Positions 214 to 37,280 of a stretch of DNA of 64,000 nucleotides are shown here, piece after piece. Under the pieces are notes generated by a model. That model was not told the DNA's origin and searched no databases. It saw only the letters and a list, made by a program, of their open reading frames with translations. Position numbers and translations under genes: made by a program. Each line of letters starts with the position of its first letter. Within the stretch, counting starts at the first letter, position 1. The DNA is taken from the NCBI GenBank assembly GCA_902563435.1, contig CACEXE010000001.1:113030-177029 (forward strand), written 5' to 3'. The stretch is from an uncultured Pelagibacteraceae bacterium. Its GTDB lineage: Bacteria > Pseudomonadota > Alphaproteobacteria > Pelagibacterales > Pelagibacteraceae.

Positions 214-1470
214 ATGCAAAAATACTCAGTTTTCAGCCTAATTAAAAATGCATTCTCAGATCATCAAAATTGGGAAGTAGCATGGAAAGATCCAACTCCT
301 AAAAAAGAATATGATGTGATTATCATAGGTGGAGGGGGTCATGGTTTAGCAACTGCATACTACTTAGCTAAGGAGCACAATATTACAAATGTAGCTATCA
401 TTGAAAAAGGCTGGATAGGTGGAGGTAATGTTGGAAGGAACACTACAATAATTAGATCAAACTATATGCATGATGACAATGCTTTGTTCAGTGAATTTGG
501 TATGGATTTGTGGAGAAAGATGAGTCAAGATTTGAATTACAATGTAATGTTTTCTCCAAGAGGAATAATTAATCTTGCCCATTCAGATGCACAAATGAAT
601 GCGTACTCTAGAAGAGGAAATTCAATGCGATTAAATGGAATTGATGCAGTTTTATTAAATAGGGAAGAGGTTCAAAAAAGAATTCCAATGGCGGATTTTT
701 CTGACAATGTGCGATTTCCAATTTTTGGAGGTTTGATGCAACCAAGTGCTGGGACTGCTAGACACGATGCTGTTGCTTGGGGATATGCAAGACAAGCAGA
801 CTCAATGGGTGTTGACATAATTCAAAATTGTGAAGTTACAGGATTTGATGTTACTAATGGTAAAATAGTTGGTGTAAGAACTTCTAGAGGAGATATCAAA
901 GCGAAAAAAGTTGGTTTGTGTGTTGCAGGTAGCACAAATATTTTAGCAGAAATGTTAAATATGACATTACCAATTGAAACTCATCTTCTTCAAGCATGTG
1001 TATCAGAACCTGTTAAACCTTTGCTTGACCATGTAGTTACATTTGGTGCAGGTCACTTTTATTGTAGTCAATCAGATAAAGGAGAGATGGTTATGGGTGG
1101 AGACTTGGACGGATACAATAGTTACTCACAAAGAGGAAACTTACCTACACTCCAACACGTATTGACTGAAGGTATTGCAATGTTTCCATTTCTAAGCAAA
1201 TTGAAAATGCTTAGAACTTGGGGTGGAATTATGGATATGTCAATGGACGGTTCACCAATTATTGATAAAACACATATTGATGGCTTATACTTAAATTGTG
1301 GCTGGTGTTATGGTGGATTTAAAGCCACTCCTGCTTCAGGTTGGACTTTTGCACATACAATTGCACAAGATAGAGTTCATGAATTAAACGCAGGTTACAA
1401 TTTAAATAGATTTAATACTGGTGATTTAATTGATGAAAAAGGTCTTGGAACCAAAACTTGGATATCTTAA
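214..1470 (+). CDS. soxB: Sarcosine oxidase beta subunit (FAD-dependent)
   Basis: FAD motif DVIIIGGGGHGLATAYYLAKEH; followed by soxD/A/G in canonical order. Confidence 0.95.
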   Translation: MQKYSVFSLIKNAFSDHQNWEVAWKDPTPKKEYDVIIIGGGGHGLATAYYLAKEHNITNVAIIEKGWIGGGNVGRNTTIIRSNYMHDDNALFSEFGMDLWRKMSQDLNYNVMFSPRGIINLAHSDAQMNAYSRRGNSMRLNGIDAVLLNREEVQKRIPMADFSDNVRFPIFGGLMQPSAGTARHDAVAWGYARQADSMGVDIIQNCEVTGFDVTNGKIVGVRTSRGDIKAKKVGLCVAGSTNILAEMLNMTLPIETHLLQACVSEPVKPLLDHVVTFGAGHFYCSQSDKGEMVMGGDLDGYNSYSQRGNLPTLQHVLTEGIAMFPFLSKLKMLRTWGGIMDMSMDGSPIIDKTHIDGLYLNCGWCYGGFKATPASGWTFAHTIAQDRVHELNAGYNLNRFNTGDLIDEKGLGTKTWIS

Positions 1471-1740
1471 ATGCTCTATATATTCTGTCCACATTGTGGA
1501 TCAAGATCACAGAATGAGTTTGCTTATGGCGGAGATGCAACAGTAAAACGACCAGAGCTTAACAAGGAAATTAGTGACCAAGAGTGGAATAATTTTGTTT
1601 ATTTAAGAAAAAGTCCTAGAGGAAAACACCTAGAGTTATGGCACCATATATCTGGCTGCAGACAATGGATTAAAGTTGAAAGAGATACTTCAACTCACGA
1701 AATTTTTAAAACTTATAAAGCAGATGAACTGACTGAATAA
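1471..1740 (+). CDS. soxD: Sarcosine oxidase delta subunit
   Basis: Short FCPHCGSRSQNEF...HISGCRQW zinc protein between soxB and soxA. Confidence 0.95.
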   Translation: MLYIFCPHCGSRSQNEFAYGGDATVKRPELNKEISDQEWNNFVYLRKSPRGKHLELWHHISGCRQWIKVERDTSTHEIFKTYKADELTE

Positions 1741-4736
1741 TGTCACAAGATTTTAGATTAGATAACATTGGAATGGTAAATAGAAATAAAAAAATTTCTT
1801 TTACATTTAACGGTAAAAAATATTTTGGTTATGAAGGAGATACTATTGCTTCTGCTTTAATAGCAAATGGAGTACATCTTGTTGGGAGAAGTTTTAAATA
1901 CCATAGACCTAGAGGTTTCTTTGGAGTTGGTGTTGATGAACCTTATGCAATTTTACAATTAGAAAGAAATAATGAGAGAGATCCTAATATTAGAGCTACT
2001 GAACAGGAGATTTTTGAAGGTTTAGAGGTTAAAAGTGTGAATTGTTGGCCTAGTGTAAACTTTGATATTGGAGCAATTAATAATTTCTTAAAAATGTTTT
2101 TTCCAGCTGGGTTTTATTATAAAACTTTTATGTGGCCACCAAGTTTCTGGTACAAAATTTATGAACCTTTCATTAGAATGGCAGCAGGCTTTGGAGAGGC
2201 ATCTATCAAACATGATAAAGAAAGATACGAGCATAAATATGAATATTGTGATTTATTAATCACTGGGTCAGGACCTTCAGGTTTAGCTAGTGCATATGCA
2301 GCAGCAAAAAATGGTGCGCGTGTAATTTTAGCTGAAGACAAACCAAGGTATGGAGGTAGCCTGTTAACTAGTGATGTAAATATTGGTAATCAAACTGGTG
2401 CTGAATGGTCAGAGAAAATAATTACAGAGTTAAAGTCAATGTCAAATGTGATTGTAAAAAATAGATCACAAGTATTTGGTTATTATGATCATAATATGTT
2501 GGTAATGTCGGAACGAATAAGCGATCACTTGCCCAAAACCCAAAAATATTTACCTAAACAACGTTTGTGGTACATAAGAGCAAAAGAAGTTCTTATTTCA
2601 TCAGGTTCAATTGAAAGACCACTAGTATTTGGTAACAATGATACCCCAGGTGTAATGTTATCTTCAGCAGCTAAAGAATACATGAAGGTCTATGGAGTTT
2701 TAGTTGGAAAAAAACCTTTGATATTTACTAATAATGACAGTGGATATGAAACCGCTATAGAGTTCAAAAAAAATGGTGTTAATCCAATAATTTTAGATAC
2801 TAGAAAAAAACCATCTTCTGACATAATTACTGAAGCAAAAAATTTAGGAATTGAAATTAAATATTCTTATGTGGTAGTTGCTGCTAAAGGATACAAAAAA
2901 GTCAAATCAGCTGATATTGCAAAAATATCTGATAATAAAAAAGATTTATCAAATATAGAAAATATTGAATGTGATTGTATTTGTGTTTCAGGGTTTTGGA
3001 CACCATCAATTCACTTAGCATCACAATCTGGAAATAAATCTGAATTTAATGAGAAAATAGATGCATTCATTCCAAAAAAATCTAAACAGAAAGAAAATAC
3101 TATTGGTTCTGCAAACGGTAAATTTACTTTAGAGGAAACTATTAATGAAGCATTCAATAAAGGATACGAAGTCTCAAACAAAATAACAGAAAATAATAAT
3201 AAAGTTTCTATTCCAACTGTAGTTGAAAAAAAATCTTCAGAGCATGACAAGTTTTGGTGTGTTCCATTACCAAAAGGTAAATCTTACAAAAGATTTTTAG
3301 ATTTTCAAAACGATGTGGCTGTAACAGATATAGAGTTGGCATTAAGAGAGGGTTTTAGATCAATCGAACATGTAAAAAGATATACCACCCTTGGAATGGC
3401 AACAGATCAAGGAAAGACAAGTAATCTTAATGGTTTACAATTAGTGTCAGATATTGAAAATAAAGTTGTACCACAAGTTGGCCACACTACATTTAGGCCA
3501 CCTTATACACCTGTTTCAATTGGAGCAATTGTGGGAAGAGAAGTTGGCAAACATTCTAAACCGACAAGAAAATCACCAATGCACGAGTGGCACGAAAAAA
3601 ATAATGCAGTATTTGTTGATGCTGGAGTTTGGTTGAGACCAAGATACTACAAGCAAGGAAATGAAACATTATTTGAAGCTTCAAAAAGAGAAGCAAAAAA
3701 TGTAAGAAAAAATGTAGGTGTATGTGATGTAACTACTTTAGGAAAAATAGATGTTAAAGGCCCCGATGCTGCAGAATTTTTAAATAGAGTTTATACTAAT
3801 GCATGGCTTAAGCTACCAGTTGGTAAAGCAAGATATGGAGTGATGCTAAGAGAAGATGGAATTGTAATGGATGATGGAACAACAACAAGAATTTCTGAAA
3901 ATCATTACCACATGACAACTACAACAGCTCAAGCAGCAAATGTCTTGTCTCATTTAGAATATTATTTGCAGCTAGTTTGGCCAGAATTAAATGTGAATGT
4001 AGTTTCAACAACAGAGCAGTGGGCTGGTGCTGCAATAGCAGGCCCAAATTCAAGAGCATTACTAATGAAATTATTTCCAAATACTGATGTATCTAATGAA
4101 GCTCTACCATTTATGGGTTACAAAGAGGCTGATTTATTTGGTATTCCTGCAAAAATTTATAGAATTTCATTTTCAGGAGAGCTTGCTTATGAAGTTAATG
4201 TGGAGTCAGACTATGGTAATTTCATGTGGGAAAAAATTATCGAAGTTGGTAAAGAATTAAAAATACAGCCATATGGAACTGAGGCCCTTTCTACTTTAAG
4301 GATAGAAATGGGTCACGTTGCTGGCTCTGAGCTTGATGGTAGAACAATTCCTCATGATGCATCGCTTGAAGGTTTAGTAAGTAAGAAAAAAGACTTTATT
4401 GGTAAAAGATCTTTAAGCAGATCAGCTTTTACAAAACCGGATAGAGAAAAAATAGTAGGCGTTGTTCCATTAGACAAAACAACAAGTATTCCTGAAGGTT
4501 CATATATTGTTAAAGACCCTAAAGCAAAACTTCCAAACCCTAAATTAGGTCATGTCTCAGCATCATGTTGGAGTGTTGAGTATGATAATCCATTCTCACT
4601 TGCGATAATTAAAGATGGTAAAAATATGATAGGACAAAAGTTATTTGCTATGTCACCTTTAAAAAATAAAACTATTCCTGTGGAAATTGTTTCATCTCAT
4701 TATGTTGATCCTGAAGGAAAGAGAGTAAGAGCATGA
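1740..4736 (+). CDS. soxA: Sarcosine oxidase alpha subunit with C-terminal GcvT domain
   Basis: 998 aa; N-terminal 2Fe-2S-like/FAD region (GSGPSGLASAYAAAKNGARVILAEDK), C-terminal aminomethyltransferase domain; start overlaps soxD stop. Confidence 0.95.
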   Translation: MSQDFRLDNIGMVNRNKKISFTFNGKKYFGYEGDTIASALIANGVHLVGRSFKYHRPRGFFGVGVDEPYAILQLERNNERDPNIRATEQEIFEGLEVKSVNCWPSVNFDIGAINNFLKMFFPAGFYYKTFMWPPSFWYKIYEPFIRMAAGFGEASIKHDKERYEHKYEYCDLLITGSGPSGLASAYAAAKNGARVILAEDKPRYGGSLLTSDVNIGNQTGAEWSEKIITELKSMSNVIVKNRSQVFGYYDHNMLVMSERISDHLPKTQKYLPKQRLWYIRAKEVLISSGSIERPLVFGNNDTPGVMLSSAAKEYMKVYGVLVGKKPLIFTNNDSGYETAIEFKKNGVNPIILDTRKKPSSDIITEAKNLGIEIKYSYVVVAAKGYKKVKSADIAKISDNKKDLSNIENIECDCICVSGFWTPSIHLASQSGNKSEFNEKIDAFIPKKSKQKENTIGSANGKFTLEETINEAFNKGYEVSNKITENNNKVSIPTVVEKKSSEHDKFWCVPLPKGKSYKRFLDFQNDVAVTDIELALREGFRSIEHVKRYTTLGMATDQGKTSNLNGLQLVSDIENKVVPQVGHTTFRPPYTPVSIGAIVGREVGKHSKPTRKSPMHEWHEKNNAVFVDAGVWLRPRYYKQGNETLFEASKREAKNVRKNVGVCDVTTLGKIDVKGPDAAEFLNRVYTNAWLKLPVGKARYGVMLREDGIVMDDGTTTRISENHYHMTTTTAQAANVLSHLEYYLQLVWPELNVNVVSTTEQWAGAAIAGPNSRALLMKLFPNTDVSNEALPFMGYKEADLFGIPAKIYRISFSGELAYEVNVESDYGNFMWEKIIEVGKELKIQPYGTEALSTLRIEMGHVAGSELDGRTIPHDASLEGLVSKKKDFIGKRSLSRSAFTKPDREKIVGVVPLDKTTSIPEGSYIVKDPKAKLPNPKLGHVSASCWSVEYDNPFSLAIIKDGKNMIGQKLFAMSPLKNKTIPVEIVSSHYVDPEGKRVRA

Positions 4737-5320
4737 CGGTGATTTCTGCATTACAAAATGTCCATGTAGAGGGGTCATTTGGAAACTTTGAAAATAAATC
4801 TGAAAATGAATTATTAAAAATTAAAGAATTAAAAAATTTATTAATCGTTCAAATAGTTCAGTATAAAAATTCTTCAATTAAAATTGACGATATAAATTTT
4901 AACAATTTAAAATTTATAAATCAGGCACAAAAAGTAGTTTCAAATGAAAATATAAGAGTTTTGTGGAATTCACCAAATAATTGGCTTTTAGTATCTCATA
5001 AAAAAGAATTGTTAAAAGAAATTTACAGCACTTTTAATGAAAATGATTTTGCTGTTACAGACCTATCTCATTCTAAAGCAACGATAGAATTAGAAGGACC
5101 ATACGTAAAAGAAGTTTTAAAAAAAGGATGTCCTTTTAATTTTAATATTTTAACGAAAAATATGAGTATTAACTCAGCTTATAATGGAATTTCTTTTATA
5201 GTTGATATGGTTGAAAATGAACCAGAAAAAGCAAGAATTTTTTCTCTAAGAAGTTTTGGGGAATCTCTATACCATTCTATCACTGATGCTTCTTTAGAAT
5301 TTGGCTATAAGTGTAATTAG
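4733..5320 (+). CDS. soxG: Sarcosine oxidase gamma subunit
   Basis: Position, ATGA overlap with soxA, and GcvT-fold-like SoxG sequence (LSHSKATIELEGPYVKEVLKKGCPFN). Confidence 0.88.
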   Translation: MTVISALQNVHVEGSFGNFENKSENELLKIKELKNLLIVQIVQYKNSSIKIDDINFNNLKFINQAQKVVSNENIRVLWNSPNNWLLVSHKKELLKEIYSTFNENDFAVTDLSHSKATIELEGPYVKEVLKKGCPFNFNILTKNMSINSAYNGISFIVDMVENEPEKARIFSLRSFGESLYHSITDASLEFGYKCN

Positions 5321-13381: not shown

Positions 13382-13541
13382 AGAATATGATGCAGAATTA
13401 AATAAGAATTTAGAAGCAGATTTAAATGATATTTGTGAAGAGTGTAAAAAAGAAGATGAAAGCGTAACTCAAAATTTATTCCTTACTGGTTTTAAAATTT
13501 GCAAATCTTGCAGAACATCTAAAACTGTTTTTCCTTTTTAG
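13374..13541 (+). CDS. 55-aa double-CxxC (zinc-ribbon-like) small protein
   Basis: MTKEYDAELNKNLEADLNDICEECKKEDESVTQNLFLTGFKICKSCRTSKTVFPF; overlaps DUF3726-like stop by 8 nt; below ORF-track size cutoff. Confidence 0.72.
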   Translation: MTKEYDAELNKNLEADLNDICEECKKEDESVTQNLFLTGFKICKSCRTSKTVFPF

Positions 13542-14083
13542 CTAATATTACTAATTGGAATTGAATTCATTCTATTAATTATGAATGTTATAGATAGAAA
13601 AGCTATTATTAGAAAAGATAAAAATACTATTCCAAATGATTTCAAGTTAGATTTTAAATTCAAAATTTGTTTGGTTGATATTATTAGAGATGCAAATATC
13701 CAAAATTGAGTAAGGAAAATAATTGGCAGAACTAAGTCAGGTGTTACTGCAAAAAACCTAATTAAACCTGGCGCATGAGCATAACCCACAGCTATTAAAA
13801 TCTTTTTAAAAGGAACCTTACTCCCTTTATCTGGAAAAATTTTTACTCCAATTACAAAAATAAAAATAGCCCAAACAAACCATGTTAAAAGAGCAGTCAA
13901 GCCCGAGATGCCAATTGATGTTCTCACGATTGAATTTGCCGCTACTGCTCCCGCGACACCATCAAGTATCATTACAAGACCAGCAAAATAGATTGCAGCC
14001 TCACCAAAGTATTTATTATCTCTGTATAAGCTTTGATCTAATTTTAAAGATTTAAAAAAAATTTCTAAAAATTGTGCGAACAT
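13538..14083 (-). CDS. Yip1-family-like integral membrane protein
   Basis: 181 aa with several hydrophobic segments; AVGYAHAPGLIRFF motif typical of bacterial Yip1 domain proteins. Confidence 0.7.
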   Translation of the reverse strand: MFAQFLEIFFKSLKLDQSLYRDNKYFGEAAIYFAGLVMILDGVAGAVAANSIVRTSIGISGLTALLTWFVWAIFIFVIGVKIFPDKGSKVPFKKILIAVGYAHAPGLIRFFAVTPDLVLPIIFLTQFWIFASLIISTKQILNLKSNLKSFGIVFLSFLIIAFLSITFIINRMNSIPISNIS

Positions 14084-14122: not shown

Positions 14123-15481
14123 TTAACCTTTTACAACTTCTCTTGTATTTGCGTTGTAAGATTCTTTAAATGGTATATCTACTATTACTGCATCAACAGG
14201 TTTGCCTGGAGTTTCAGAATATTTCTCCGGCAAATGTACCTTGAACTTAGATCCTACTTTTCCTTTTGGAAATCCATTTGCGTTCAATGTTCCATCAAAT
14301 GGCACATAACCCATAGCAATGTTCTGTTTCTTTTCAGGATGATACCAAGGAGAAGTAACAAAACCTATAGGTTCTCCACCACCCTCATCTGAAATTAGCC
14401 AAAAGTCAGGAGCGTATTCCTCAATTGGTTTTCCTCCTAATTCAAGACCAACTAATTGAAGTTTGTATGGTTTGTGACCTGCTTTTAAATCAGCTTTCAT
14501 TTTTTCAAGAGCTTTCTTTCCTACGTAATCTGCTTTCTTGTTCCATTCTCCTTTACCAGACAATGATACTTGATAACCTAAATTACATTGAAAAGGATTA
14601 TGTTGATTATCCATGTCTTGACCCCAAGAAAGAATTCCAGCTTGAATTCTTCTATGGTGCGCAGGGGCAATAACCATTAGGCTATGTTTTTTTCCTGCTT
14701 CAAGAACTGCATTCCACATATCCTCTGCGTATAGCGTACATTCTCTTAAATAAATTTCATAACCAGCTTCACCAGAAAACCCTGATTGAGATATCACGCA
14801 ACTTCTTCCACCGATTTTAGCTTCTGCTAAACCGTAGAATGGCATATTGTCAAAATCTACTTGATCTCCACATAAATCCTTCATTAATGCTTTAGATTTT
14901 GGCCCCTGTATCTGAACTGGGCTTACATCTATTTCATCAATTTCTACGTTGTATCTTTCGTCAGCGTTTACGCCTTGTAAATAAAGACCTATATCGCTAT
15001 CAGATAAACTAAACCAAAATTCATCTTTTGATATTCTTAAAAGAATAGGATCATTTAATACTCCGCCATATGCATTACAAAGAATTACATATCTTGCTCT
15101 CATTGGCGAAATTTTTGTAGCATCTCTTGTGATTACATAATCTACAAATTTTTCTGCATCTGGACCCTTTACTCTAATTTGTCTTTCAACAGCAACGTTC
15201 CACATTGTTACGTGATTTACTATTGCATCATACTCTACCATTGCACCACCATCTTCAGGTTTTACATATCCTCTTGGATGGTAAATACGATTATATACAG
15301 TTGCTCTCCAACAGCCTTCTTTCATTGACAAATGCCAATAGGGTGATTTTCTTACACGTGTTGAAATTAACATTTCAACTTTTGTTGGTCCGCTTTGTCT
15401 TAAATTATAAGGCACTTTTCTATCAGATTGATCTACTGATGTTACGTGTCTTAGTTTACTATAGTCAAATTCATTAGACAT
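14123..15481 (-). CDS. GcvT-family aminomethyltransferase, DMSP-demethylase (DmdA)-like
   Basis: 452 aa; MWNVAVERQIRVKGPDAEKFVDYVITRDATKISPMRARYVILCNAYGGVLNDPILLRIS...FSLSDSDIGLYLQGV resembles DmdA/GcvT folds but has an extended N-terminus; substrate unknown. Confidence 0.85.
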   Translation of the reverse strand: MSNEFDYSKLRHVTSVDQSDRKVPYNLRQSGPTKVEMLISTRVRKSPYWHLSMKEGCWRATVYNRIYHPRGYVKPEDGGAMVEYDAIVNHVTMWNVAVERQIRVKGPDAEKFVDYVITRDATKISPMRARYVILCNAYGGVLNDPILLRISKDEFWFSLSDSDIGLYLQGVNADERYNVEIDEIDVSPVQIQGPKSKALMKDLCGDQVDFDNMPFYGLAEAKIGGRSCVISQSGFSGEAGYEIYLRECTLYAEDMWNAVLEAGKKHSLMVIAPAHHRRIQAGILSWGQDMDNQHNPFQCNLGYQVSLSGKGEWNKKADYVGKKALEKMKADLKAGHKPYKLQLVGLELGGKPIEEYAPDFWLISDEGGGEPIGFVTSPWYHPEKKQNIAMGYVPFDGTLNANGFPKGKVGSKFKVHLPEKYSETPGKPVDAVIVDIPFKESYNANTREVVKG

Positions 15482-16202
15482 AGTTATTCTCCTTCAACCA
15501 CTTGTTTGTTTCCTTCAAGCCGCCGAATGTATAAATGTGAAAATAATCAGTATGCGATTTAACTTTCCCAATTAGATCATTAGGGTCTTTAGGTTTCAAT
15601 AAATCTAATGCCTTACTAAAATTAGATTTAAGAAAATTAATGGAATTTTTTGCACCAACAATATTTGCAAACTTTATCAAGCTTGAAATTTTCATGGGCC
15701 CAGTTATTCCAACATGAACTGGTATCGTTTGTTTAGAAATGAAATCAACGATAGGCTGAGAATCTAGTAACCATTGAGTAACTATATAATCAGCATAAGG
15801 CTTTTTATCTATCATTGCTTTTTCTAATTCTGAGTCGGATATATCAGGACTACCCTCTGGATGTCCAGCAATTCCAATCTTAATTCCATCAAATAAACCT
15901 GTCTCTAATATTTGATATGAGCTGTCAAATTTTCCAACTGGGTCTCTACTTCCACCTATAGCCAATATCTGTTTTACACCTAAATCTTTACATCTCGTGA
16001 TGTAGTCTTTAAGTTCTTCCTCATTATTTATTGATCTAGCTGGGAAGTGGGGCACTGGATTAAATCCTTTTTTAACCAAATCACCAGACTTATCAGCAGT
16101 CTCTTTATAATCTCCTCCAGGTAGCATGGTCACGTAAACATCTTTAACTTCAGGTAAAGTATCAAGATCTGTGTGAGGCCCAATTTCTAATGAAAAATTC
16201 AT
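15474..16202 (-). CDS. Methylenetetrahydrofolate reductase (MetF)-like, short form
   Basis: GFNPVPHFPARSINNEEELKDYI, ILAIGGSRDPVG, IGIAGHPEGSPD motifs; overlaps the DmdA-like gene by 8 nt. Confidence 0.85.
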   Translation of the reverse strand: MNFSLEIGPHTDLDTLPEVKDVYVTMLPGGDYKETADKSGDLVKKGFNPVPHFPARSINNEEELKDYITRCKDLGVKQILAIGGSRDPVGKFDSSYQILETGLFDGIKIGIAGHPEGSPDISDSELEKAMIDKKPYADYIVTQWLLDSQPIVDFISKQTIPVHVGITGPMKISSLIKFANIVGAKNSINFLKSNFSKALDLLKPKDPNDLIGKVKSHTDYFHIYTFGGLKETNKWLKENNYV

Positions 16203-16264
16203 TATTGGATAATTATTTATTTTAAAATAACTGTCTAGAAAAATATTAGATCAAAGTGTCAGGG

Positions 16265-17149
16265 TTATTTTTTCTGACCTCTATGTTTTTGAATTCTCTG
16301 ACCGTACTGCTGTGTTACTCTGTCAAAGATGATCGCCAGAGCTACTATTGCTAGTCCATTCATCATTCCAAGTGCTAAATACTGATTAGAAATAGCTTGT
16401 AAAATAGGCACTCCTAGACCTTTAACTCCAATCATTGACGCAATTACCACCATAGCCAAAGCCATCATAATTGTTTGGTTTATTCCAGCGAATATAGTGG
16501 GTAAAGACAACGGAATTTGCACAGATTTTAACTTTTGCATTGGCGTTGCACCAAATGCTTCGCTTGCTTCAAGTGTTTCTTTATCAACCTCTCTAATTCC
16601 AAGGTTTGTTAACCTAACAACTGGTGGTAAAGCATAAATACAAACTGCCAATAAACCAGGTACTTTCCCTATTCCTAAAAGCATTATTATAGGTATGAGG
16701 TAAACGAAACTTGGAATAGTTTGCATCATGTCCAATATAGGTAATATTGCCTTCTCAGCTCTACTTGATTTTGACATTAATATCCCAATTGGAATACCAA
16801 CAACTATACAAACTAATGTTGAAACAGATATTATAGCAACAGTTGCCATACAATTTTTCCACATTCCAAAATAGCCAATAACTATAAAACAAATTACAGT
16901 TCCTATGACCAGCTTAATACTTCTGGAACCTATCCAAGCTAATAAAGCAAATACTCCAATGACGATAGGCCAAGGACTATTAACTAATAATTTTTCTAAC
17001 CAAATTAAAAAATATAACAGTGGATCAAAAAAACTCTCTATACCGTCACCATAGGCTCTTGAAAAATCTTTAAAACTTAAATCAATTCCTTTTTTCAACT
17101 CTCTCAGAGCTGTTCTATCCATTACAGGAATTTTAGAAAAGAAGTCCAT
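16265..17149 (-). CDS. Glycine betaine/proline-type ABC transporter permease (ProW/OpuAB family)
   Basis: AILPILDMMQTIPSFVYLIPIIMLLGIGKVPGLLAVCIYALPPVVRLTNLGI; downstream of substrate-binding protein. Confidence 0.93.
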   Translation of the reverse strand: MDFFSKIPVMDRTALRELKKGIDLSFKDFSRAYGDGIESFFDPLLYFLIWLEKLLVNSPWPIVIGVFALLAWIGSRSIKLVIGTVICFIVIGYFGMWKNCMATVAIISVSTLVCIVVGIPIGILMSKSSRAEKAILPILDMMQTIPSFVYLIPIIMLLGIGKVPGLLAVCIYALPPVVRLTNLGIREVDKETLEASEAFGATPMQKLKSVQIPLSLPTIFAGINQTIMMALAMVVIASMIGVKGLGVPILQAISNQYLALGMMNGLAIVALAIIFDRVTQQYGQRIQKHRGQKK

Positions 17150-17164
17150 TTATTTTTTCTTAAA

Positions 17165-17192
17165 ATCGAACCCGTTTTATAACGGGTTCGAT
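17165..17192 (-). terminator. Perfect 12-bp stem-loop between substrate-binding protein and permease genes
   Basis: ATCGAACCCGTT-TTAT-AACGGGTTCGAT; on the minus strand followed by TTTTAAG; likely attenuator/3'-stabiliser giving excess binding protein. Confidence 0.75.
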
Positions 17193-17204
17193 AATTTTAA
17201 TTAA

Positions 17205-18215
17205 TTAAAGTGCTTTTTTGATTTTTTTAGCCGCTGAACTTGAAACCCATTTAGACCAAACGTCCTCTTGTGTTTTCAAAAATTCAATTGCAGCATCTGC
17301 ACCTTCAGCTTGGTTTTCTCCCATCCAAACTAACATTCCATTCATTACTGGACCTGGGTATGTTCTTTTTTCAAGATAATCCATACCTTCTTTTCCAGCA
17401 GTTTTTTTGTAATTGTCGGTTGCGACTGAATAAACTTCAGACTTAACCCATGAAGATTTTAAAGGATTAGCACACTCTTGCTCGGGTTTTGACAAACAGT
17501 TATCCCAGTTATCTTTACCAGCGTACTCACCCATATCCACAGCAATCATTCCATATTTTCCAATTATAGCAGTTGGTGACCAGTAGTAACCAAACCAGTT
17601 TTCACCTCTTTCTGCAGCTTTTGCAATTGAACCATCAAGACCTGCTGCTGATCCAGTTTCTACTATAGCCCAACCTTTTGCTTCCATTCCCCAAGCTCTA
17701 AAATGATTTCTGTTACTTAATTCACAGTTCCATCCTGGAGGGCAAATATGAAATCCGCCTTTTGATGGATCTTCCGGGTGTGGGAAAAGATCAGGTCTTT
17801 CTAAAATTGCATCGGCAGTTGTAAGTTCTGGATGCTTCTCTAAAGTTGCTGGTAATACCCACCAACCTTCACCTAAACCAGTAATCGGTGCTTTATTAAT
17901 CGAGTGGAGTTTTCCTTCGGCTACAGCAGCTTCTAACTCTACTTTTGCTGCATTTGCCCAAAACTCGGGAGCTATATCTGGCTCACCTTTTTCTTGCATC
18001 GAAGTAAATGTAGGCATTGTAGCACCAGGCACAAGCTCAACATTACATCCATAACCTTCTTCTAATATGATTTTGTCAACTTCAGCCATAAAATTTGCAG
18101 AGGCCCAATTCATATTAGCAATAGTAATGTCTCCACATTTTGCATTAGCAACATTACTGTACGATGTAACGCCTAAAACAAATAATGCAGAAAGTAATAT
18201 TCTTTTTAATTTCAT
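17205..18215 (-). CDS. Glycine betaine/proline-type ABC substrate-binding protein (ProX-like)
   Basis: Signal peptide; IANMNWASANFMAEVDKIILEEGYGCNVELVPG; AGGAGAT SD upstream. Confidence 0.92.
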   Translation of the reverse strand: MKLKRILLSALFVLGVTSYSNVANAKCGDITIANMNWASANFMAEVDKIILEEGYGCNVELVPGATMPTFTSMQEKGEPDIAPEFWANAAKVELEAAVAEGKLHSINKAPITGLGEGWWVLPATLEKHPELTTADAILERPDLFPHPEDPSKGGFHICPPGWNCELSNRNHFRAWGMEAKGWAIVETGSAAGLDGSIAKAAERGENWFGYYWSPTAIIGKYGMIAVDMGEYAGKDNWDNCLSKPEQECANPLKSSWVKSEVYSVATDNYKKTAGKEGMDYLEKRTYPGPVMNGMLVWMGENQAEGADAAIEFLKTQEDVWSKWVSSSAAKKIKKAL

Positions 18216-18357
18216 TATTATCTCCTAATTAATTAATTATAATTCATCAGAACATATAGAGGGATAAATTGCAAACTGGTTTCAACTCTTAGTTGTGTGA
18301 AAATTGTCTTTATACCCCTCATATTTATAAATAAATTATTAAAAAATATTAAATCCT

Positions 18358-18987
18358 ATGGCTCAGAAAGACGTTGGCAACAAAGTACCCATTTATAAAC
18401 TTAAAGAAACAAAAGAGGTTATGGAATTCTATGATGACTGGGGACTAAACAATAAATATGACAAAGACATGCTTGATTGGAATTATACAGGTCCAAAAGA
18501 GACCTCTGAAGTATTTGCAAAATACCAAAAAGAAAAAAATATAAAAATTTATGATGCTGGATGTGGCACAGGCTTAGTTGGTTTAGAGTTAAAAAAATAT
18601 GGTTTTTCTGACTTTTATGGCGCTGATTTATCACAAAAACTTTTAGATTTAGTTCCAAACAATCTTTATAAAAAATTAGAAAGAGTTGATTTAAATAAAC
18701 CAATAAATGAAAAAGATAATGATTACGACGCACTAATGTGTGTTGGAACATTTACTTTTGGTCATGTGAAACCACCAGCTCTTGATGAATTTATAAGAAT
18801 CACAAAAAACAAAGGTCTTATTTGCTTTACAATTAATGAAGGCATTCATGAAGAATATGGTTTTGATAAAAAGATTGAAAAATTAAACGAAGAAAGAAAG
18901 TGGAAGGAATTAGAATTTTTTAAGTCAGATTATATAGCAAGCAAAGATGTCAATGCTTGGTTGGGTCTATATGAAGTTACTAAATAA
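18358..18987 (+). CDS. SAM-dependent class I methyltransferase
   Basis: IYDAGCGTGLVGLELKKYGFSDFYGADLS motif I/II. Confidence 0.9.
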   Translation: MAQKDVGNKVPIYKLKETKEVMEFYDDWGLNNKYDKDMLDWNYTGPKETSEVFAKYQKEKNIKIYDAGCGTGLVGLELKKYGFSDFYGADLSQKLLDLVPNNLYKKLERVDLNKPINEKDNDYDALMCVGTFTFGHVKPPALDEFIRITKNKGLICFTINEGIHEEYGFDKKIEKLNEERKWKELEFFKSDYIASKDVNAWLGLYEVTK

Positions 18988-20162
18988 TGTCAGAAATTTT
19001 CAAGATTATAGAAAAGAAAAAATTAGATGTTGTCAAACAACCAATTAGTAAAGCACATGGTTTGCCAAATGAATGTTACACAAATAAAGAGTATACTTTA
19101 ATAGAAAGAAAAAAACTTTTTGAAGATAAGTGGACAGTAGTTGGTACTGCTAGCTCATTACCAAAAGCAGGAGACGTAAAACCATTTGATCTATTAGGTC
19201 TCCCACTGCTTATAGTTAGAAATAAAAAAAATAAAATTAAAGTTTTTCATAATATATGTAGTCATAGAGGTGTGAAACTTGTAGATAAACCTGGCAAAAT
19301 TAGAAATGTAATCAGATGTCCTTACCATTCCTGGTCTTATACAGCAGACGGAGAATTATTAGCAACTCCTCATATTGGAGGGATGAACAAACATCACAGT
19401 TCAAAGTTTGATAAATCTAAAAGTAATCTTAAAGAAATAAAATCTTATGTGTGGCTTGATTTAATAATTGTAAATATTAGCAACAATCAAATTCCTTTTG
19501 AAAAATATATCAAACCCTTAGATGATAGATGGGCTAAATTTTGGATCAGTAAAGATAGAGAGTTAATAAATCATGCTAATGATTTTGGATATTTCAAATT
19601 AAAAGCAAAATGTAATTGGAAATTTGCAATTGAAAATTATTGTGAGAGTTATCATTTGCCATGGGTACATCCTGGATTAAATAAATATTCCAAAATAGAT
19701 GATCATTATCATATTCAAGGTTTACCCAATCGATTTGCTGGACAAGGAACAACAAATTATAATCCTAAATTTAAAGGAAAGAAAAAATTTCCAAGCTTTC
19801 CTAATTGGCCAAAAAATAAGGAGCATATTGCAGAGTATGTTGCTCTTTTTCCTAATGTTATGTTAGGTATTCATAAAGATCATTATTATGCATATTGGCT
19901 AGAACCTATAGACCATGAAAATACTTTAGAACATATGGAGATATATTATGTAGGTGAAAAAGCTGCTAAATCTGAAAAATTTAGATCATTGAGAAAACAA
20001 AACCATAAATTGTGGGAGGACATTCAAAAAGAAGATGTAGATATCATTCAACGGATGCAAATAGGCCGCAATTCCAATGCATATAATGGTGGAAATTTTT
20101 CTCCCGATATGGATAATCCCACCCATCAATTTCACAAGTGGGTATCATCGAATCTTGTGTAG
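18987..20162 (+). CDS. Rieske non-heme iron oxygenase alpha subunit (GbcA/CntA-like ring-hydroxylating family)
   Basis: NICSHRG-x-RCPYHSW Rieske centre (CxH x17 CxxH); ENYCESYHLPWVHPGL iron site. Confidence 0.92.
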   Translation: MSEIFKIIEKKKLDVVKQPISKAHGLPNECYTNKEYTLIERKKLFEDKWTVVGTASSLPKAGDVKPFDLLGLPLLIVRNKKNKIKVFHNICSHRGVKLVDKPGKIRNVIRCPYHSWSYTADGELLATPHIGGMNKHHSSKFDKSKSNLKEIKSYVWLDLIIVNISNNQIPFEKYIKPLDDRWAKFWISKDRELINHANDFGYFKLKAKCNWKFAIENYCESYHLPWVHPGLNKYSKIDDHYHIQGLPNRFAGQGTTNYNPKFKGKKKFPSFPNWPKNKEHIAEYVALFPNVMLGIHKDHYYAYWLEPIDHENTLEHMEIYYVGEKAAKSEKFRSLRKQNHKLWEDIQKEDVDIIQRMQIGRNSNAYNGGNFSPDMDNPTHQFHKWVSSNLV

Positions 20163-23954: not shown

Positions 23955-26390
23955 ATGATGAAATCAAAAGCAAAAGTTGTAGTAGTAGGTGGTGGAGTTG
24001 TTGGTGTTAGTGCTCTGTATCACTTAGCTAAAAAGGGCTGGTCTGATGTTGTTTTGATTGAAAGAAAGGAATTAACCTCAGGTTCAACATGGCATGCAGC
24101 TGGATTACTTCCATTATTTAATATGAGCTACTCAGTTGGCCAATTACATAAATATGCTGTTAACCTTTATAAAAGCTTAGAAGAAGAAACAGGAAAGAAT
24201 GTTGGATTTAGTGTTGTGTCAAATATTAGATTAGCAAACAATAAAGATAGAATGGATGAATATCATCAGTACGCTGGTGTTGCAAAAACTATTGGGGTTG
24301 ACGTAAAATTTTTAACGCCAGATCAAGTAAAAGAAATTTGGCCTTTGTGTCATACAGATGATTTAATAGGAGCAATTCAACATCCTGAAGATGGATATAT
24401 TCAACCTGCAGATTTAACACAAGCATTAGCTACGGGCGCGAGAAATAGAGGTGCTGAGATTTACAGAAATACAACAGTTCTGGCGATGAAACAAAATAAA
24501 GATGGATGGGTTGTTGAAACAGATAAAGGATCTATAGAATGCGAACACGTAATTTCTTGTTCAGGAAATTTTGCTAGACAAACTGGTAAGATGGTTGGTT
24601 TAGATATTCCAGTAATACCAGTTGAACATCAATATATTGTAACAGAACCACATCCGGAAATTCAAAAAAGAAAAAAAGAAGGTCTTCCAGAAATGGGAGT
24701 TTTAAGAGATAGTGATAGCAGATGGTACATGAGAGAAGAAGCAGGTGGTTTAATTTTAGGACCATATGAAGATGGTGCTCCTGCCTGTTATGTAGATGGT
24801 CCTTCAAAGGAATCTGAGTATGAACTTTTTCAAGAAGATCTAGATAGACTTGCTCCTCATATTGAAGGAGCTATTCATAGAGTTCCAGCATTTGGAGAAG
24901 TAGGAGTTAAAAAAGTTTATAATGGCGCAATTTGTTATACTCCAGATGGAAATCCGATAGTTGGTCCTGCATGGGGATTAAAGAACTTTTGGATTAATGA
25001 AGGTCATAGTTTTGGCATTACTGCAGCTGGTGGAGCTGGATGGCAACTAGCAGAGTGGATCGTTGATGGTGAACCCACTATTGACATGCTTGGTGTAGAG
25101 CCAAGAAGATATGGAGATTATTGTTCAAAATCGTATCTTAAAGAAAAAAATGAAGAAGCTTATAGCCATGTATTTATAACTCACTTTCCAGACGAGGAAA
25201 GACCAGCCGCAAGACCTTTAAGAACAGCACCATGTTATGACAGAATGAAAAATCTTGGTGCAGTTTTTGGCCAAAAATTTGGATGGGAAAGACCAAACTT
25301 TTTTGCAACTGATGGTATGGAACAAAAAGATGATTGGTCATTCAGAAGATCTAATTGGTTCAAGGCAGTTGAAAAAGAGTGTAAAAATGTAAAAGAAAAT
25401 GTTGGTTTACTAGATATGACTGCATTTGCTAAATGTAGAATTAAAGGACCAGGAGCTGAAGAATTTTTAGATAAGTTGGTAGCTAATAAATTACCAAAAA
25501 AGGTTGGTAGAATTAATTTATGCCACGCATTAAATACCAAAGGTGGTGTTCACTCAGAATTTACAATTATGAGAGAGTCAGAAAATAGTTTTTATCTTGT
25601 TTCTGCCGGGGCTTACCAAAGATTAGATCACGATTGGATATTTGGTTGGATGCCAAAAGATGGATCAGTTCAATTTGAGAACTTAACAAATAGTAAAGGT
25701 GTACTTGTAGTATCAGGACCGAAAGCAAGAGAATTAATGCAAAGGGTGTCAAATGATGATTTTTCAAATGAAAATTTTAAATGGCTAAGCGCAAAACAAG
25801 TAGATGTAGGTTTTGCACCAGTAAATGCAATGAGAGTTAATTTTGTTGGAGAGCTAGGATGGGAACTTCATCATCCTATTGAATATCAAAATCATATTTT
25901 CGATAAACTTATGGATGCTGGTCAAGACTTAGGTTTAAAACCTTATGGTATCAGAGCAATGAACAGTTTAAGAGTTGAAAAATCCTACAAACTAGTTGGA
26001 ACTGAATTATCAATTGAGTATTCACCTTACGAAAGTGGTTTAGATAGATTTATTCATCCAAACAAAGGAAGTTTTATTGGACTTGATGCTTTAAATAAAT
26101 GGAGAGAAAAAGGCTTTGATAATAAGCTTGTTACTCTAGAGGTTCACGAAACTAGTGATGCGGATGTACTCGGAAACAACCCAATTTATGAAAATGGTAG
26201 TGTTGTAGGTCGTGCAACTGGTGGTGATTTTGGATTTAGACTAGGAAAATCTATCGCACTAGGAATGGTTAAACCTGAGTTAGCAAATGTTGGACAAAAA
26301 CTAAGGATTGATATACTTGGTAAAATGCATGAGGCAACAATTTTAGAAGAAAGTCCTTACGATGCAGAAAATAAATTATTGAGAGCTTAA
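23955..26390 (+). CDS. Dimethylglycine/sarcosine dehydrogenase-like FAD + GcvT fusion protein
   Basis: 811 aa; [33 protein letters not shown]-terminal aminomethyltransferase domain. Confidence 0.93.
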
Positions 26391-27140
26391 TGAAAATTTT
26401 AGTCGCTGTAAAAAGGGTTATTGATTATAACGTTCAAATTAGAGTTAAAGAGGATGGTAGTGGTGTAGTTACTGATAACGTTAAAATGTCAACGAACCCA
26501 CCAGATGACAATGCTATTGAGGAAGCTGTAAAAATAAAAGAGTCAGGTAAAGCAACAGAAATAATAGCAGTTACTGTTGGTGAAGAGAAAGCTCAAGAGA
26601 CAGTTAGAAAAGCTTTAGCAGTAGGAGCGGATAGAGGAATTCATGTAAAGGTTGATGGTATCATTGAACCTCTTGCTGTATCTAAAATATTAAAAAAAAT
26701 TGTTGAAAAAGAAAATCCAGATTTAGTATTTATGGGAAAACAAGCAATTGATGATGACTGCAATCAAACAGGTCAAATGTTAGCGGCACATTTAAATTGG
26801 CCACAAGCAACTTTTGCCTCAAAAATTGAGGTAAACGATCAATCATTACAAGTTACTAGAGAGGTAGATGAAGGTCTTGAAACTATAGAAGTTAATACAC
26901 CAGCTATTGTTACATGTGATTTAAGATTAAATGAGCCAAGATATGCGTCACTGCCAAATATAATGAAAGCTAAAAAAAAAACCTATTGAACAGATTAATG
27001 CGTCAGATCTAGGAGTTGATACAAACCCTAGAATAGAACATATTAAGATTGAAGAACCACCGAAAAGAAAAGCGGGTATAAAAGTTGCTAGTGTTGAGGA
27101 ATTAGTGCAAAAATTAAAAAATGAGGCTAAGGTAATTTAA
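26390..27140 (+). CDS. etfB: Electron transfer flavoprotein beta subunit, apparently frameshifted at a 10-A run (26972-26981)
   Basis: ORF 26390-26989 ends KAKKKTY*; removing one A gives [57 protein letters not shown], ending 27140 and overlapping etfA ATG. Confidence 0.93.
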
Positions 27141-28093
27141 TGTCAGTTTTATTAATAGCAGAGCATAACAACAAAGAGGTAAAACCATTTACTTTAAACG
27201 CGATTACAGCTGCATCGCAAATAGATCAAGATCTTCATGTACTGTTAATTGGAAGTAAGGCAGATGATGTTGCAAAATCTTTATCTGAAGTTCCTTTAGT
27301 AAAAAAAGTTCTGCATATAGATCATGAAATTTATGAAAATTATATTGCAGAGAATTATACTGCAGCAATTTTAAAACACGCTGATAAATATTCACATATT
27401 ATTTGCTCAGCAAATACATTTGGAAAAAACCTTATGCCACGAGTTGCAGCGTTGTTAGATATTTCACAAGTAAGCGATATTATAAAAGTAATTTCTCCTG
27501 ATACTTTTTTAAGACCAATTTACGCTGGAAATGCATTTGCTACTGTTAAAAGTAATGACGAAAAAAAATGTGTTACTATTAGACCAACATCATTTGAAGC
27601 AGCTGAAACAACTGGTGGATCTGCAGAAATAGAAAAAATCGATGCAGCAGACCAAACTGAAAATACTAAATTTATTAATAGAGAAGAAATTAAATCAGAT
27701 AGACCTGAATTAGGCACTGCCAGAATAGTAATTTCTGGTGGTAGAGGCTTACAAAGTGGAGAAAACTTCAAACTGATAACTGATGTAGCGGACAAGCTAA
27801 ATGCTGCAATAGGAGCTTCAAGAGCTGCGGTTGATGCTGGATATATTACAAACGAACATCAAGTGGGACAAACAGGAAAAGTTGTTGTTCCTGATCTATA
27901 TATAGCAGTTGGAATTTCTGGAGCTATTCAACATTTAGCAGGAATGAAAGAAAGTAAAGTTATAGTTGCTATAAATAAAGATGGTGAAGCACCTATTTTT
28001 AGTGTCGCAGATTACGGCCTGGAAGCTGATTTATTCGAAGCACTTCCTCAATTCTTAGAGGAACTGAACAAATTAAACACTATACAAAAATAA
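27140..28093 (+). CDS. etfA: Electron transfer flavoprotein alpha subunit
   Basis: VISGGRGLQSGENF; GASRAAVDAGYITNEHQVGQTGKVVVPDLYIAVGISGAIQHLAGM. Confidence 0.96.
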   Translation: MSVLLIAEHNNKEVKPFTLNAITAASQIDQDLHVLLIGSKADDVAKSLSEVPLVKKVLHIDHEIYENYIAENYTAAILKHADKYSHIICSANTFGKNLMPRVAALLDISQVSDIIKVISPDTFLRPIYAGNAFATVKSNDEKKCVTIRPTSFEAAETTGGSAEIEKIDAADQTENTKFINREEIKSDRPELGTARIVISGGRGLQSGENFKLITDVADKLNAAIGASRAAVDAGYITNEHQVGQTGKVVVPDLYIAVGISGAIQHLAGMKESKVIVAINKDGEAPIFSVADYGLEADLFEALPQFLEELNKLNTIQK

Positions 28094-28114: not shown

Positions 28115-29734
28115 ATGTCCAGAGAAGTGATGGAATACGATGTTGTAATCGTAGGTGGCGGACCATCGGGACTTTCAACTGCAATAAAATTAAAGCAGTT
28201 AAATCCAGATATTAATGTCTGCCTTTTAGAAAAAGCATCTGAAATAGGTGCACATATTTTATCCGGGAACGTGTTTGAAACACGAGCCTTAGACGAACTA
28301 TTGCCAAATTGGAAAGATCTTAATCCACCAATTAAAACAAAAGTTAACAAAGAAAAGTTTCTATTTCTGGGAAAGACAAAAAAAATTAGTTGGCCAACCT
28401 GGTTATTACCTAAAGTACAACAAAATCATAACAATTATATTATTAGTCTAGCTAATTTATGTAGATGGTTAGCAGAACAAGCTGAAACTCTTGGAGTTGA
28501 AATATTCCCAGGTTTTCCTGCAAGTGAAGTTTTATATAATGAAGATGGTTCTGTTAAGGGTGTAGCAACTCAAGATATGGGTTTAGATAAAGAAGGTAAT
28601 AAAAAAGATGGTTATGAACCAGGAATGGAACTTCATGCTAAAGTTACAGTTTTTGCAGAAGGGTGTAGAGGACATTTGGGAAAAGAATTAATCAAAAAAT
28701 TTGATTTAGATAAAGGAAAGGATCCACAACAGTATGGAATAGGATTTAAAGAAATATGGGAATTAAAAGAAGAAAATCACGATGAAGGTCTAGTGATGCA
28801 TACTGCAGGTTGGCCATTAGATAACAGTACCTATGGAGGAAGCTTTGTTTATCATGCTGAAAATAAACAAATATTTTTAGGATATGTCATTGGTCTTGAT
28901 TATAAAAATCCACATCTTTCACCATTTGATGAATTTCAAAAATTTAAAACTCATCCTGCGATTAGATCAATATTAAAAGGTGGTAAAAGAATATCATATG
29001 GGGCAAGAGCACTTATAGAGGGAGGTTTTCAAAGTCTACCTAAGATGTTTATGCCAGGTGCATTATTAGTTGGTTGCGATGCAGGTACATTAAATATGCC
29101 AAAGATTAAAGGATCACATACTGCAATGAAAAGTGGAATGATTGCAGCGGAAACTATTATTGATCACATAAAATCAAGCAAAGAATTGTCTATTTATGAG
29201 GAAAACTTCAAAAAAAGTTGGGTTTATAAAGAGTTATATGAGGCTAGAAATGTTAAACCTAGCTTTAGCTGGGGTTTAATTCTTGGAATAATATTTACGG
29301 GTATTGATCAAATTTTATTTAGAGGAAGATTACCATTTACACTTAGACACAAACATGCTGACCACCAAACTTTAAAACCAGCGAGCGAAATGCCAAAAAT
29401 AGATTATCCAAAACCAGATAATGTCATTACATTTGATAAAACAAGTTCAGTTTATCTAACAGGAACTAATCATGCTGAAAATCAACCAGTACATCTTCAA
29501 CTTAAAGATAAAGATTTACCAATAAAATATACTTTAAGTAAATACGATGAGCCTGCGCAAAGATACTGTCCAGTTGGAGTTTATGAAATTCAAAAAGAAA
29601 ATGATGTTGAAAAATTTGTAATTAATTCTCAAAATTGTATTCATTGTAAAACTTGCGATATAAAAGAACCATCACAAAATATTACATGGGTCACGCCAGA
29701 AGGTGGGGGTGGACCTAAGTACGGAAATATGTAG
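28115..29734 (+). CDS. Electron transfer flavoprotein-ubiquinone oxidoreductase
   Basis: FAD motif plus C-terminal 4Fe-4S NCIHCKTCDIKEPSQNITWVTPEGGGGPKYGNM. Confidence 0.96.
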   Translation: MSREVMEYDVVIVGGGPSGLSTAIKLKQLNPDINVCLLEKASEIGAHILSGNVFETRALDELLPNWKDLNPPIKTKVNKEKFLFLGKTKKISWPTWLLPKVQQNHNNYIISLANLCRWLAEQAETLGVEIFPGFPASEVLYNEDGSVKGVATQDMGLDKEGNKKDGYEPGMELHAKVTVFAEGCRGHLGKELIKKFDLDKGKDPQQYGIGFKEIWELKEENHDEGLVMHTAGWPLDNSTYGGSFVYHAENKQIFLGYVIGLDYKNPHLSPFDEFQKFKTHPAIRSILKGGKRISYGARALIEGGFQSLPKMFMPGALLVGCDAGTLNMPKIKGSHTAMKSGMIAAETIIDHIKSSKELSIYEENFKKSWVYKELYEARNVKPSFSWGLILGIIFTGIDQILFRGRLPFTLRHKHADHQTLKPASEMPKIDYPKPDNVITFDKTSSVYLTGTNHAENQPVHLQLKDKDLPIKYTLSKYDEPAQRYCPVGVYEIQKENDVEKFVINSQNCIHCKTCDIKEPSQNITWVTPEGGGGPKYGNM

Positions 29735-33278: not shown

Positions 33279-34307
33279 ATGAAAAAAATGACAATATCCG
33301 CATTAATCTTATCCTTATTTGCATCAAGCTTTGCAATAGCAAATGAGGTAAATATTTTTAATGCAAGACATTATAAAGCTGATGCAGAACTTTATAGTAA
33401 ATTTACAGCAGCAACAGGAATTAAAGTAAACTTAATCAATGGTAAAGCTGGTGCTTTAGAAAAAAGAATGATCGAAGAGGGAGCTGACTCTGCTGCTGAT
33501 CTTTATATAACAGCTGACGCTGGAAGATGTGGTGCTTTTAAAGCAAAAGGAATGACTCAATCAGGATTAGTTTCATCTACAATTAAATCATCTGTACCAA
33601 AAAGTTTTAGGACTACACACTGGGTTGGAGTAGCAAAAAGAGCAAGAATTGTTTACTACTCACCAGAAAGAGTAAGCGGTGCTGAGTTATCAGGTTTAAC
33701 TTATGAGAGTTTAGCAGATCCAAAATGGAAAGGCAGAATTGCAATTAGAGCTTCTAGCAACATTTATAACAAATCTCTTGTAGCTTCATTAGTTAAAAAC
33801 AATGGAAAAAAAGCTGCAGGTGAGTGGGCTAAAGGAGTTGTTGCAAACATGGCAAGAGATCCAAAAGGAAATGATAGAGCACAAATTATGGCTGTAGCAG
33901 CTGGTGAAGCTGATATTGCTGTTGCAAATACTTATTACTTAGCTTTGATGTTATCAGGTAATAAAGGTCCAGAACAACAGGAAGCTGCAAAAAAAGTTAA
34001 AGCATTTTTCCCTAATCAAAATGATAGAGGGACACATATGAATATTAGTTGTGCTGCTTTAGTAAAAGGAGCGCCTAATAAAGCTAATGCAATTGCACTT
34101 GTTGATTTCTTATTATCACCAGAAGCTCAAGAACACTTTACAAATAATACATTTGAGTTTCCAATGATAGCTGGAGTTTCACCAAGTCCATTGGTAGTGA
34201 ACAACTTAGGTTTAGATTTTAAACAAGATCTAACAACAAGTGTTGCTAGTTATGGAGCAAAGCAAGCTGATGCCCTAGAGGTAATGACAGCTGCTGGTTG
34301 GAAGTAA
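33279..34307 (+). CDS. Fe(3+) ABC transporter substrate-binding protein
   Basis: Signal peptide; NEVNIFNARHYKADAELYSKFTAATGIKVNLINGKAG; NTYYLALML Tyr pair. Confidence 0.93.
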   Translation: MKKMTISALILSLFASSFAIANEVNIFNARHYKADAELYSKFTAATGIKVNLINGKAGALEKRMIEEGADSAADLYITADAGRCGAFKAKGMTQSGLVSSTIKSSVPKSFRTTHWVGVAKRARIVYYSPERVSGAELSGLTYESLADPKWKGRIAIRASSNIYNKSLVASLVKNNGKKAAGEWAKGVVANMARDPKGNDRAQIMAVAAGEADIAVANTYYLALMLSGNKGPEQQEAAKKVKAFFPNQNDRGTHMNISCAALVKGAPNKANAIALVDFLLSPEAQEHFTNNTFEFPMIAGVSPSPLVVNNLGLDFKQDLTTSVASYGAKQADALEVMTAAGWK

Positions 34308-34330
34308 CATTGAAAGTTAAAAAAAAATTT

Positions 34331-34480
34331 ATGTCTGAAGTTAATTTAAATAAATCAGCCAATGCATGCGTACCATGTGCTGAGGAGTGTAAAAAAATTA
34401 ACAAAAGAATAAATAAAAGGAAATTATCAGAGATAAGTACTAAAGATTTTCCGCACATTTCAAAGGTATTCAATATCTGA
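34331..34480 (+). CDS. Small Cys-rich ORF (49 aa) between binding protein and permease
   Basis: MSEVNLNKSANACVPCAEECKKINKRINKRKLSEISTKDFPHISKVFNI; within iron operon, upstream of a hairpin. Confidence 0.45.
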   Translation: MSEVNLNKSANACVPCAEECKKINKRINKRKLSEISTKDFPHISKVFNI

Positions 34481-34492
34481 CTTTTCTTAATT

Positions 34493-34523
34493 AAAGTGCC
34501 TATGCATCCTTCGTAGGCACTTT
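34493..34523 (+). terminator. Stem-loop between iron binding-protein and permease genes
   Basis: AAAGTGCCTA-(11 nt)-TAGGCACTTT followed by T then AAAAAT; partial terminator/attenuator. Confidence 0.7.
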
Positions 34524-34573
34524 TAAAAATATTAAGAGAGACTATATAGGTCATTTAAACTACAAATATCTCT

Positions 34574-37253: not shown

Positions 37254-37280
37254 GTATTATTATACTTTAAAAATATATTC

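Follow-up and report, generated by a model that had tools for sequence, protein, structure and literature searches.

What methyl donor is served by a 452-residue GcvT-family protein (hereafter F452) that is encoded with a short MetF-like reductase in SAR11 bacteria? We addressed this question starting from a 64,000-nucleotide stretch of DNA, hereafter the window, from a Pelagibacteraceae (SAR11) genome (G000; 1.18 Mb, 41 contigs, 78% complete). Glycine betaine (GBT) is among the main nitrogen osmolytes of the sea and of brines, and the enzyme for the first step of its breakdown has so far been unclear in the SAR11 bacteria and salt-loving archaea that carry F452. Our analyses indicate that F452 is probably a cobalamin-independent GBT:tetrahydrofolate (THF) methyltransferase, with the adjoining MetF then oxidising methyl-THF. 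A little more cautiously, we consider it likely that SAR11, other Alphaproteobacteria and haloarchaea share a family of single-polypeptide, cobalamin-independent GBT:THF methyltransferases that offers a fourth way to initiate GBT breakdown and allows SAR11 to burn betaine methyls in a manner untied from methionine synthesis.

A first-pass annotation of the window had described a minus-strand unit of four genes, for a binding protein, a permease, a MetF-like protein and the 452-residue GcvT-family protein. Their coordinates match open reading frames (ORFs; Table 1), and the overlap of 8 nt between the MetF and F452 genes is real (positions 15474-15481). The metF gene is found directly upstream of the F452 gene in all 73 SAR11 loci with enough sequence, so the pairing is not due to chance, and these two genes are the conserved core of the unit. 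The ProX/ProW-type uptake system had also been regarded as part of the module; however, of the 61 SAR11 loci whose upstream sequence is long enough (a selection skewed to the closest kin of the window), 40 have the binding-protein gene and 41 the permease gene. The importer is absent in several more distant SAR11 genomes (G381, G295, G012, G061, G062 and G016) and from all distant F452 carriers examined. The importer is an optional accessory of the module rather than a constant component, and for that reason we dropped it as a guide to the substrate. Downstream of the F452 gene, a Yip1-family membrane protein (window positions 13538-14083) is encoded in 58 of 61 SAR11 loci.

Judging by its sequence, F452 is a member of the GcvT/aminomethyltransferase (AMT) superfamily but not a DmdA. 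It scores 236.2 bits on the DmdA model NF009133, below the cut-off of 410, and it also falls below the cut-offs of the models for GcvT (TIGR00528, 127 versus 235.85; NF001567, 152 versus 300), Tdm (150.9 versus 1100), LigM (37.5 versus 580) and DesA (45 versus 800). In a tree of 42 sequences, the 24 F452 proteins form a single clade (support 100/98, or 100/100 without L054), which is sister to DmdA plus other AMTs and apart from GcvT, Tdm, dimethylglycine dehydrogenase (DMGDH) and SoxA. The DmdA clade (100/100) excludes F452 and includes a separate DmdA of the same genome (529.7 bits on the DmdA model). The noted resemblance to dimethylsulfoniopropionate (DMSP) demethylase is therefore borne out as relatedness, with F452 outside DmdA by both model score and tree, and the phylogeny suggested as a check sets it apart from GcvT and Tdm as well. 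F452 shares about 37-40% identity with DmdA-like paralogues. The family spans SAR11, other Alphaproteobacteria, whose members are 65-72% identical to F452 over its length (one at 52%), and haloarchaea (53-59%). Two further GcvT-like proteins are encoded in the same genome as the window: L008, whose DmdA-model score of 385 is below the cut-off of 410 and which clusters with a Phaeobacter protein encoded on a plasmid, and L007, which forms a long branch.

The extra N-terminal region ascribed to F452 does exist, but it is not peculiar to the window copy: all 24 aligned family members, including the archaeal ones, carry DQSDRxxPxNLRQ(S/T)G or a slight variant of it, and this stretch is missing from the DmdA and AMT rows examined. 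F452 and the DmdA-type methyl transferases have an NDP motif in common, where GcvT and Tdm have DD. An inspection of DmdA substrate residues, also suggested earlier, was done for the column of Trp197, a proposed DMSP marker (PMC7487153; Trp171 in that paper, by a correspondence worked out in this analysis). F452 proteins have Phe at this position in 23 of 24 cases. Because three of the four DmdA-clade rows carry Tyr, the column separates no groups and does not discriminate F452 from the DmdA clade; we dropped it as a marker of DMSP specificity, since the DmdA clade itself varies there. A structure prediction of F452 from a SAR11-only alignment was set aside (mean predicted local distance difference test score of 46.5).

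The short MetF is of a catabolic type, with a predicted oxidative direction from methyl-THF to methylene-THF; its matches include the MetF encoded on the chloromethane plasmid of M. extorquens CM4 (about 30% identity). In R. pomeroyi, MetF2 is the most induced protein on N-osmolytes (PMC12478193). The module had been presented as possibly undescribed, but the pair was already reported by Sun et al. 2011 (PMC3160333), who noted that SAR11_1264 (metF) adjoins SAR11_1265, an aminomethyltransferase whose substrate was not known, and guessed that it might act on the second methyl of DMSP. As in the window, this is a SAR11 metF beside a DmdA-related aminomethyltransferase, and from this arrangement the two genes are very likely orthologues of our pair. 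In HTCC1062, the SAR11_1264 and SAR11_1265 transcripts drop together in stationary phase, and bhmT is up about 34-fold under sulfur limitation (PMC5069961). That the two genes move together and apart from bhmT suits a role in catabolism better than one in making methionine.

The earlier caution that no substrate can be read from the sequence holds for the window alone but not across genomes, where replacement at the same gene slot points to GBT. In the window, soxBDAG, a DMGDH-like gene and genes for the electron transfer flavoprotein (ETF) and ETF-ubiquinone oxidoreductase (ETF-QO) flank the metF-F452 unit. The same company is found elsewhere, with soxB-soxD-soxA-soxG, a DMGDH-like gene, metF and the F452 gene all on one strand in L059, and the order F452, MetF, formate-THF ligase and DMGDH in L066. 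F452 is encoded in 15 of 289 alphaproteobacterial genomes, and all 15 also encode a DMGDH-type protein, compared with 99/289 overall (p=5e-8). Where a genome encodes a close DMGDH (at least 56% identity), PF06253 (MTTB/MtgB family) is present in 26/26 of the tested genomes devoid of F452 and in 1/12 of those that have both DMGDH and F452 (p=1e-8). Within 10 kb of the DMGDH gene, MtgB is found in 17/26 and F452 in 9/12 genomes. As PF06253 covers several substrates, reading these proteins as MtgB rests on their DMGDH company and on PMC12478193. Along the DMGDH tree, the presence or absence of F452 switches eight times, and of six independent pairs five swap F452 with MtgB and one shows no difference. 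Of the 11 F452 carriers with a completeness of 90% or more, eight have neither a BHMT match nor PF06253 nor a GbcA above the cut-off. Using a SAR11 BHMT as a query, we found matches in 43 of 101 relatives and in 13 of 22 near-complete ones, most of these relatives having F452. Many SAR11 genomes without a BHMT match, among them two that are 99% complete, have kept the metF-F452 pair together with DMGDH. This patchy distribution of BHMT, set against that of the widespread F452, makes it unlikely that BHMT is the whole answer.

In haloarchaea, F452 and MetF genes lie in clusters that also harbour, in varying combinations, BCCT transporters, two FAD/GcvT (DMGDH-type) oxidases, a serine/threonine ammonia-lyase, GlyA, FolD, formate-THF ligase and formate dehydrogenase. 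Dimethylglycine oxidases have been described beside BCCT transporters in haloarchaea, with no enzyme named for the first step in the passages concerned (Anderson et al. 2011, PMC3102087). We collected 19 haloarchaeal plasmid records that encode the same DMGDH (at least 75% identity), 13 with F452 and six without. The catabolic MetF is present in 13/13 of the former and 0/6 of the latter (p=4e-5; by species, 8 versus 6, p=3e-4). Conversely, a Rieske oxygenase is encoded in 6/6 records without F452, near the cluster in most of them, and in 3/13 with F452 (p=0.003). MetF is missing from the records in which a Rieske protein takes the place of F452; a formaldehyde-releasing oxygenase does not need MetF, whereas a transferase that makes methyl-THF does. 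The plasmid cluster of Haloarcula hispanica, a genetically tractable F452 carrier, includes neither a Rieske gene nor MtgB. Together, the contexts in the window, in Alphaproteobacteria and in haloarchaea read as a full route from GBT to glycine and then to pyruvate and CO2. Haloarchaeal megaplasmids (L155-L162 and L235) carry near-complete clusters for the conversion of GBT to pyruvate/CO2, some with folP, pabB and dihydrofolate reductase genes.

The gene context, the clade and the NDP motif support the earlier proposal of a THF-linked demethylation unit, with MetF predicted to act after methyl transfer. The company of DMGDH, sarcosine oxidase, ETF and haloarchaeal BCCT genes argues for GBT rather than a sulfur compound as the substrate, as does the replacement at the same slot by MtgB or by the haloarchaeal Rieske protein. 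From gene content, clade, operon conservation, co-occurrence and replacement we infer the substrate, the methyl-transfer chemistry and the direction of MetF as follows. F452 would transfer one methyl of GBT, an N-methyl onium, to THF without cobalamin, yielding dimethylglycine and 5-methyl-THF, and the adjoining MetF would convert the latter to methylene-THF, feeding one-carbon oxidation or serine. DMGDH, via ETF/ETF-QO, would then remove the second methyl as methylene-THF, and the sarcosine oxidase SoxBDAG the third, also as methylene-THF, leaving glycine. BHMT, by comparison, makes one methionine for each methyl that it removes. If the proposed assignment is true, betaine is oxidised by way of a B12-independent folate enzyme in haloarchaea and in some of the ocean's most abundant bacteria, marine surveys that use only bhmt and mtgC undercount GBT oxidation, and many 'glycine cleavage T-protein' or 'DMSP demethylase-like' annotations gain a testable function.

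Several observations weigh against the assignment of GBT to F452, a prediction from comparative evidence. The sign test on independent pairs gives p=0.0625, the minimum possible with five pairs, and the PF06253 count leaves out two qualifying genomes without F452, G167 and G373. Three carriers (G161, G127 and G333) have BHMT, and G385 has PF06253, BHMT and a near-GbcA protein, with its F452 copy outside any GBT cluster. In G127 the F452 gene is distant from the DMGDH gene, in G214 and G115 the two lie on different contigs, and most F452 carriers have sub-threshold Rieske proteins. In the haloarchaeal comparison, 'absent' means absent from the plasmid record that was searched, and a divergent haloarchaeal subgroup (GH36) lacks a GBT context. 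Lastly, the binding protein beside the F452 pair resembles a DMSP binder. The divergent homologue of Haloarcula sp. GH36 (L236, 15968-17335), without MetF or DMGDH nearby, possibly has another substrate.

Some of these facts would suit an enzyme that demethylates another quaternary onium compound, such as carnitine, choline, proline betaine or beta-alanine betaine, GBT being left to a Rieske enzyme or to BHMT. A Rieske gene is indeed nearby in SAR11, the H. marismortui/sinaiiensis records, from one haloarchaeal species group, hold both F452 and a Rieske gene, and the substrate of F452 is a prediction. Nevertheless, we regard this possibility as unlikely, because it leaves unexplained both the swap with MtgB at the DMGDH slot and the carriers devoid of BHMT, PF06253 and GbcA. 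DMSP was our first idea, prompted by the DmpX-like binding protein (217 bits to DmpX, with 7/8 pocket residues kept) and consistent with the identity between F452 and DmdA-like paralogues; F452 might then be a second DMSP demethylase served by the adjoining importer. We set it aside on the basis of the clade and the gene context, and consider it quite improbable: the genome has its own DmdA, F452 lies outside that clade, the importer is missing in many SAR11 loci and in all distant carriers examined, and the partners of F452 are DMGDH and sarcosine oxidase, not dmdBCD.

The GcvT fold family and the constant company of DMGDH and Sox could also suggest an accessory, THF-dependent function in the breakdown of dimethylglycine or glycine, with methylene-THF as the product. 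As DMGDH and SoxA already possess GcvT domains of their own, the adjoining MetF implies a methyl-THF product and the tree groups F452 with DmdA-type proteins, this role seems very improbable. The action on methylmercaptopropionate, and thus on the second methyl of DMSP, proposed for SAR11_1265 was based on closeness to dmdA and similar abundance (PMC3160333). It is scarcely tenable in our view, since methylmercaptopropionate is a thioether with no onium, a poor methyl donor to THF by established chemistry, and the haloarchaeal and alphaproteobacterial contexts relate to GBT, not to DMSP.

F452 shares with DmdA (P. ubique 3TFH) the GcvT fold family, the superclade and the NDP motif, along with THF as the predicted acceptor and the lack of cobalamin, but it differs by its separate clade, its N-terminal extension, a GE where DmdA has KQ, and its DMGDH/Sox partners in place of dmdBCD. 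MtgBCD (Mausz et al. 2025, PMC12478193), a GBT methyltransferase, carries out the step that is predicted for F452, the transfer of a methyl from GBT to THF; it too works with a catabolic MetF and occupies the same slot near DMGDH, although it is of an unrelated family, has several subunits and requires cobalamin. BHMT (SAR11_1173), also of an unrelated family, is predicted to take the first GBT methyl with homocysteine as the acceptor; SAR11 alone was proposed to use Bhmt for the first step (PMC12478193). The GbcAB glycine betaine monooxygenase, which likewise acts at the first step of GBT breakdown, is a Rieske oxygenase that releases formaldehyde and does not need MetF. The trimethylamine N-oxide demethylase Tdm has a GcvT domain but is larger, with a DD motif, and sits in the tree with GcvT, DMGDH and SoxA. 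The F452 family is probably the same as a clade outside DmdA that was described in PMC7487153 and includes AEM59334.1. None of the published work searched describes a glycine betaine demethylase of the GcvT family. Relative to that literature, the assignment of GBT appears to be new, as do the wide range of the family and the evidence from gene replacement.

The only structural match of the binding protein is DmpX (7YLE). Equivalents of the RnDmpX cage residues W35, T64, W84, E113, W152, Y200 and W202 are kept, and A153 is replaced by N (PMC10030565). DmpX of HTCC7211 binds DMSP at 100 nM (PMC10030565), and GBT and/or DMSP are candidate ligands of the window protein. No ABC ATPase gene lies beside the permease gene, the rest of the genome not having been searched for one. 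Beyond the binding protein, most close relatives have BHMT-like, second DMGDH-like, S-adenosylmethionine (SAM)-dependent methyltransferase and Rieske genes. The first two are missing in the window (18215-18358) and in L077, L079, L081 and L091; as four other genomes share this gap, an assembly fault is unlikely.

Table 1. Genes of the metF-F452 unit, the accessory cassette and predicted GBT-related functions in the window.
Feature	Position	Strand	Remarks
soxB, sarcosine oxidase beta	214..1470	+	TIGR01373, 678 bits, over cut-off; predicted third methyl
soxD, sarcosine oxidase delta	1471..1740	+	TIGR01374, 113.8 bits, just under cut-off of 116.5
soxA, sarcosine oxidase alpha	1740..4736	+	TIGR01372, 1307 bits, over cut-off
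soxG, sarcosine oxidase gamma	4733..5320	+	TIGR01375, 67 bits, under cut-off of 143.95
GcvT-family protein F452, 452 residues	14123-15481	-	Pfam GCV_T, 135.9 bits, and GCV_T_C, 28 bits, over cut-off
Short MetF-like protein, 242 residues	15474-16202	-	Pfam MTHFR, 28.7 bits
Permease, ProW-like, 294 residues	16265-17149	-	Pfam BPD_transp_1
Binding protein, 336 residues	17205-18215	-	Pfam OpuAC
SAM-dependent methyltransferase, accessory cassette	18358..18987	+	neighbour in relatives too
Rieske oxygenase alpha subunit, accessory cassette	18987..20162	+	distant from GbcA, 121 versus cut-off of 670
DMGDH-like, FAD and GcvT domain	23955..26390	+	652 bits to mammalian DMGDH; predicted second methyl
ETF beta	26390..26989	+	frame broken near 26987
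ETF alpha, electron acceptor chain	27140..28093	+	
ETF-QO	28115..29734	+	

The ETF beta frame breaks near an A-rich run, its remainder being in another frame (26390-27139), and relatives have an intact ORF of 249 residues; the break is either a natural mutation or an assembly error. The window also harbours a second cluster (33279-40516) coding for an ABC importer (binding protein, permease and ATPase), an 814-residue DMGDH-type protein and a TauD-type dioxygenase, whose substrate is probably another methylated amine.

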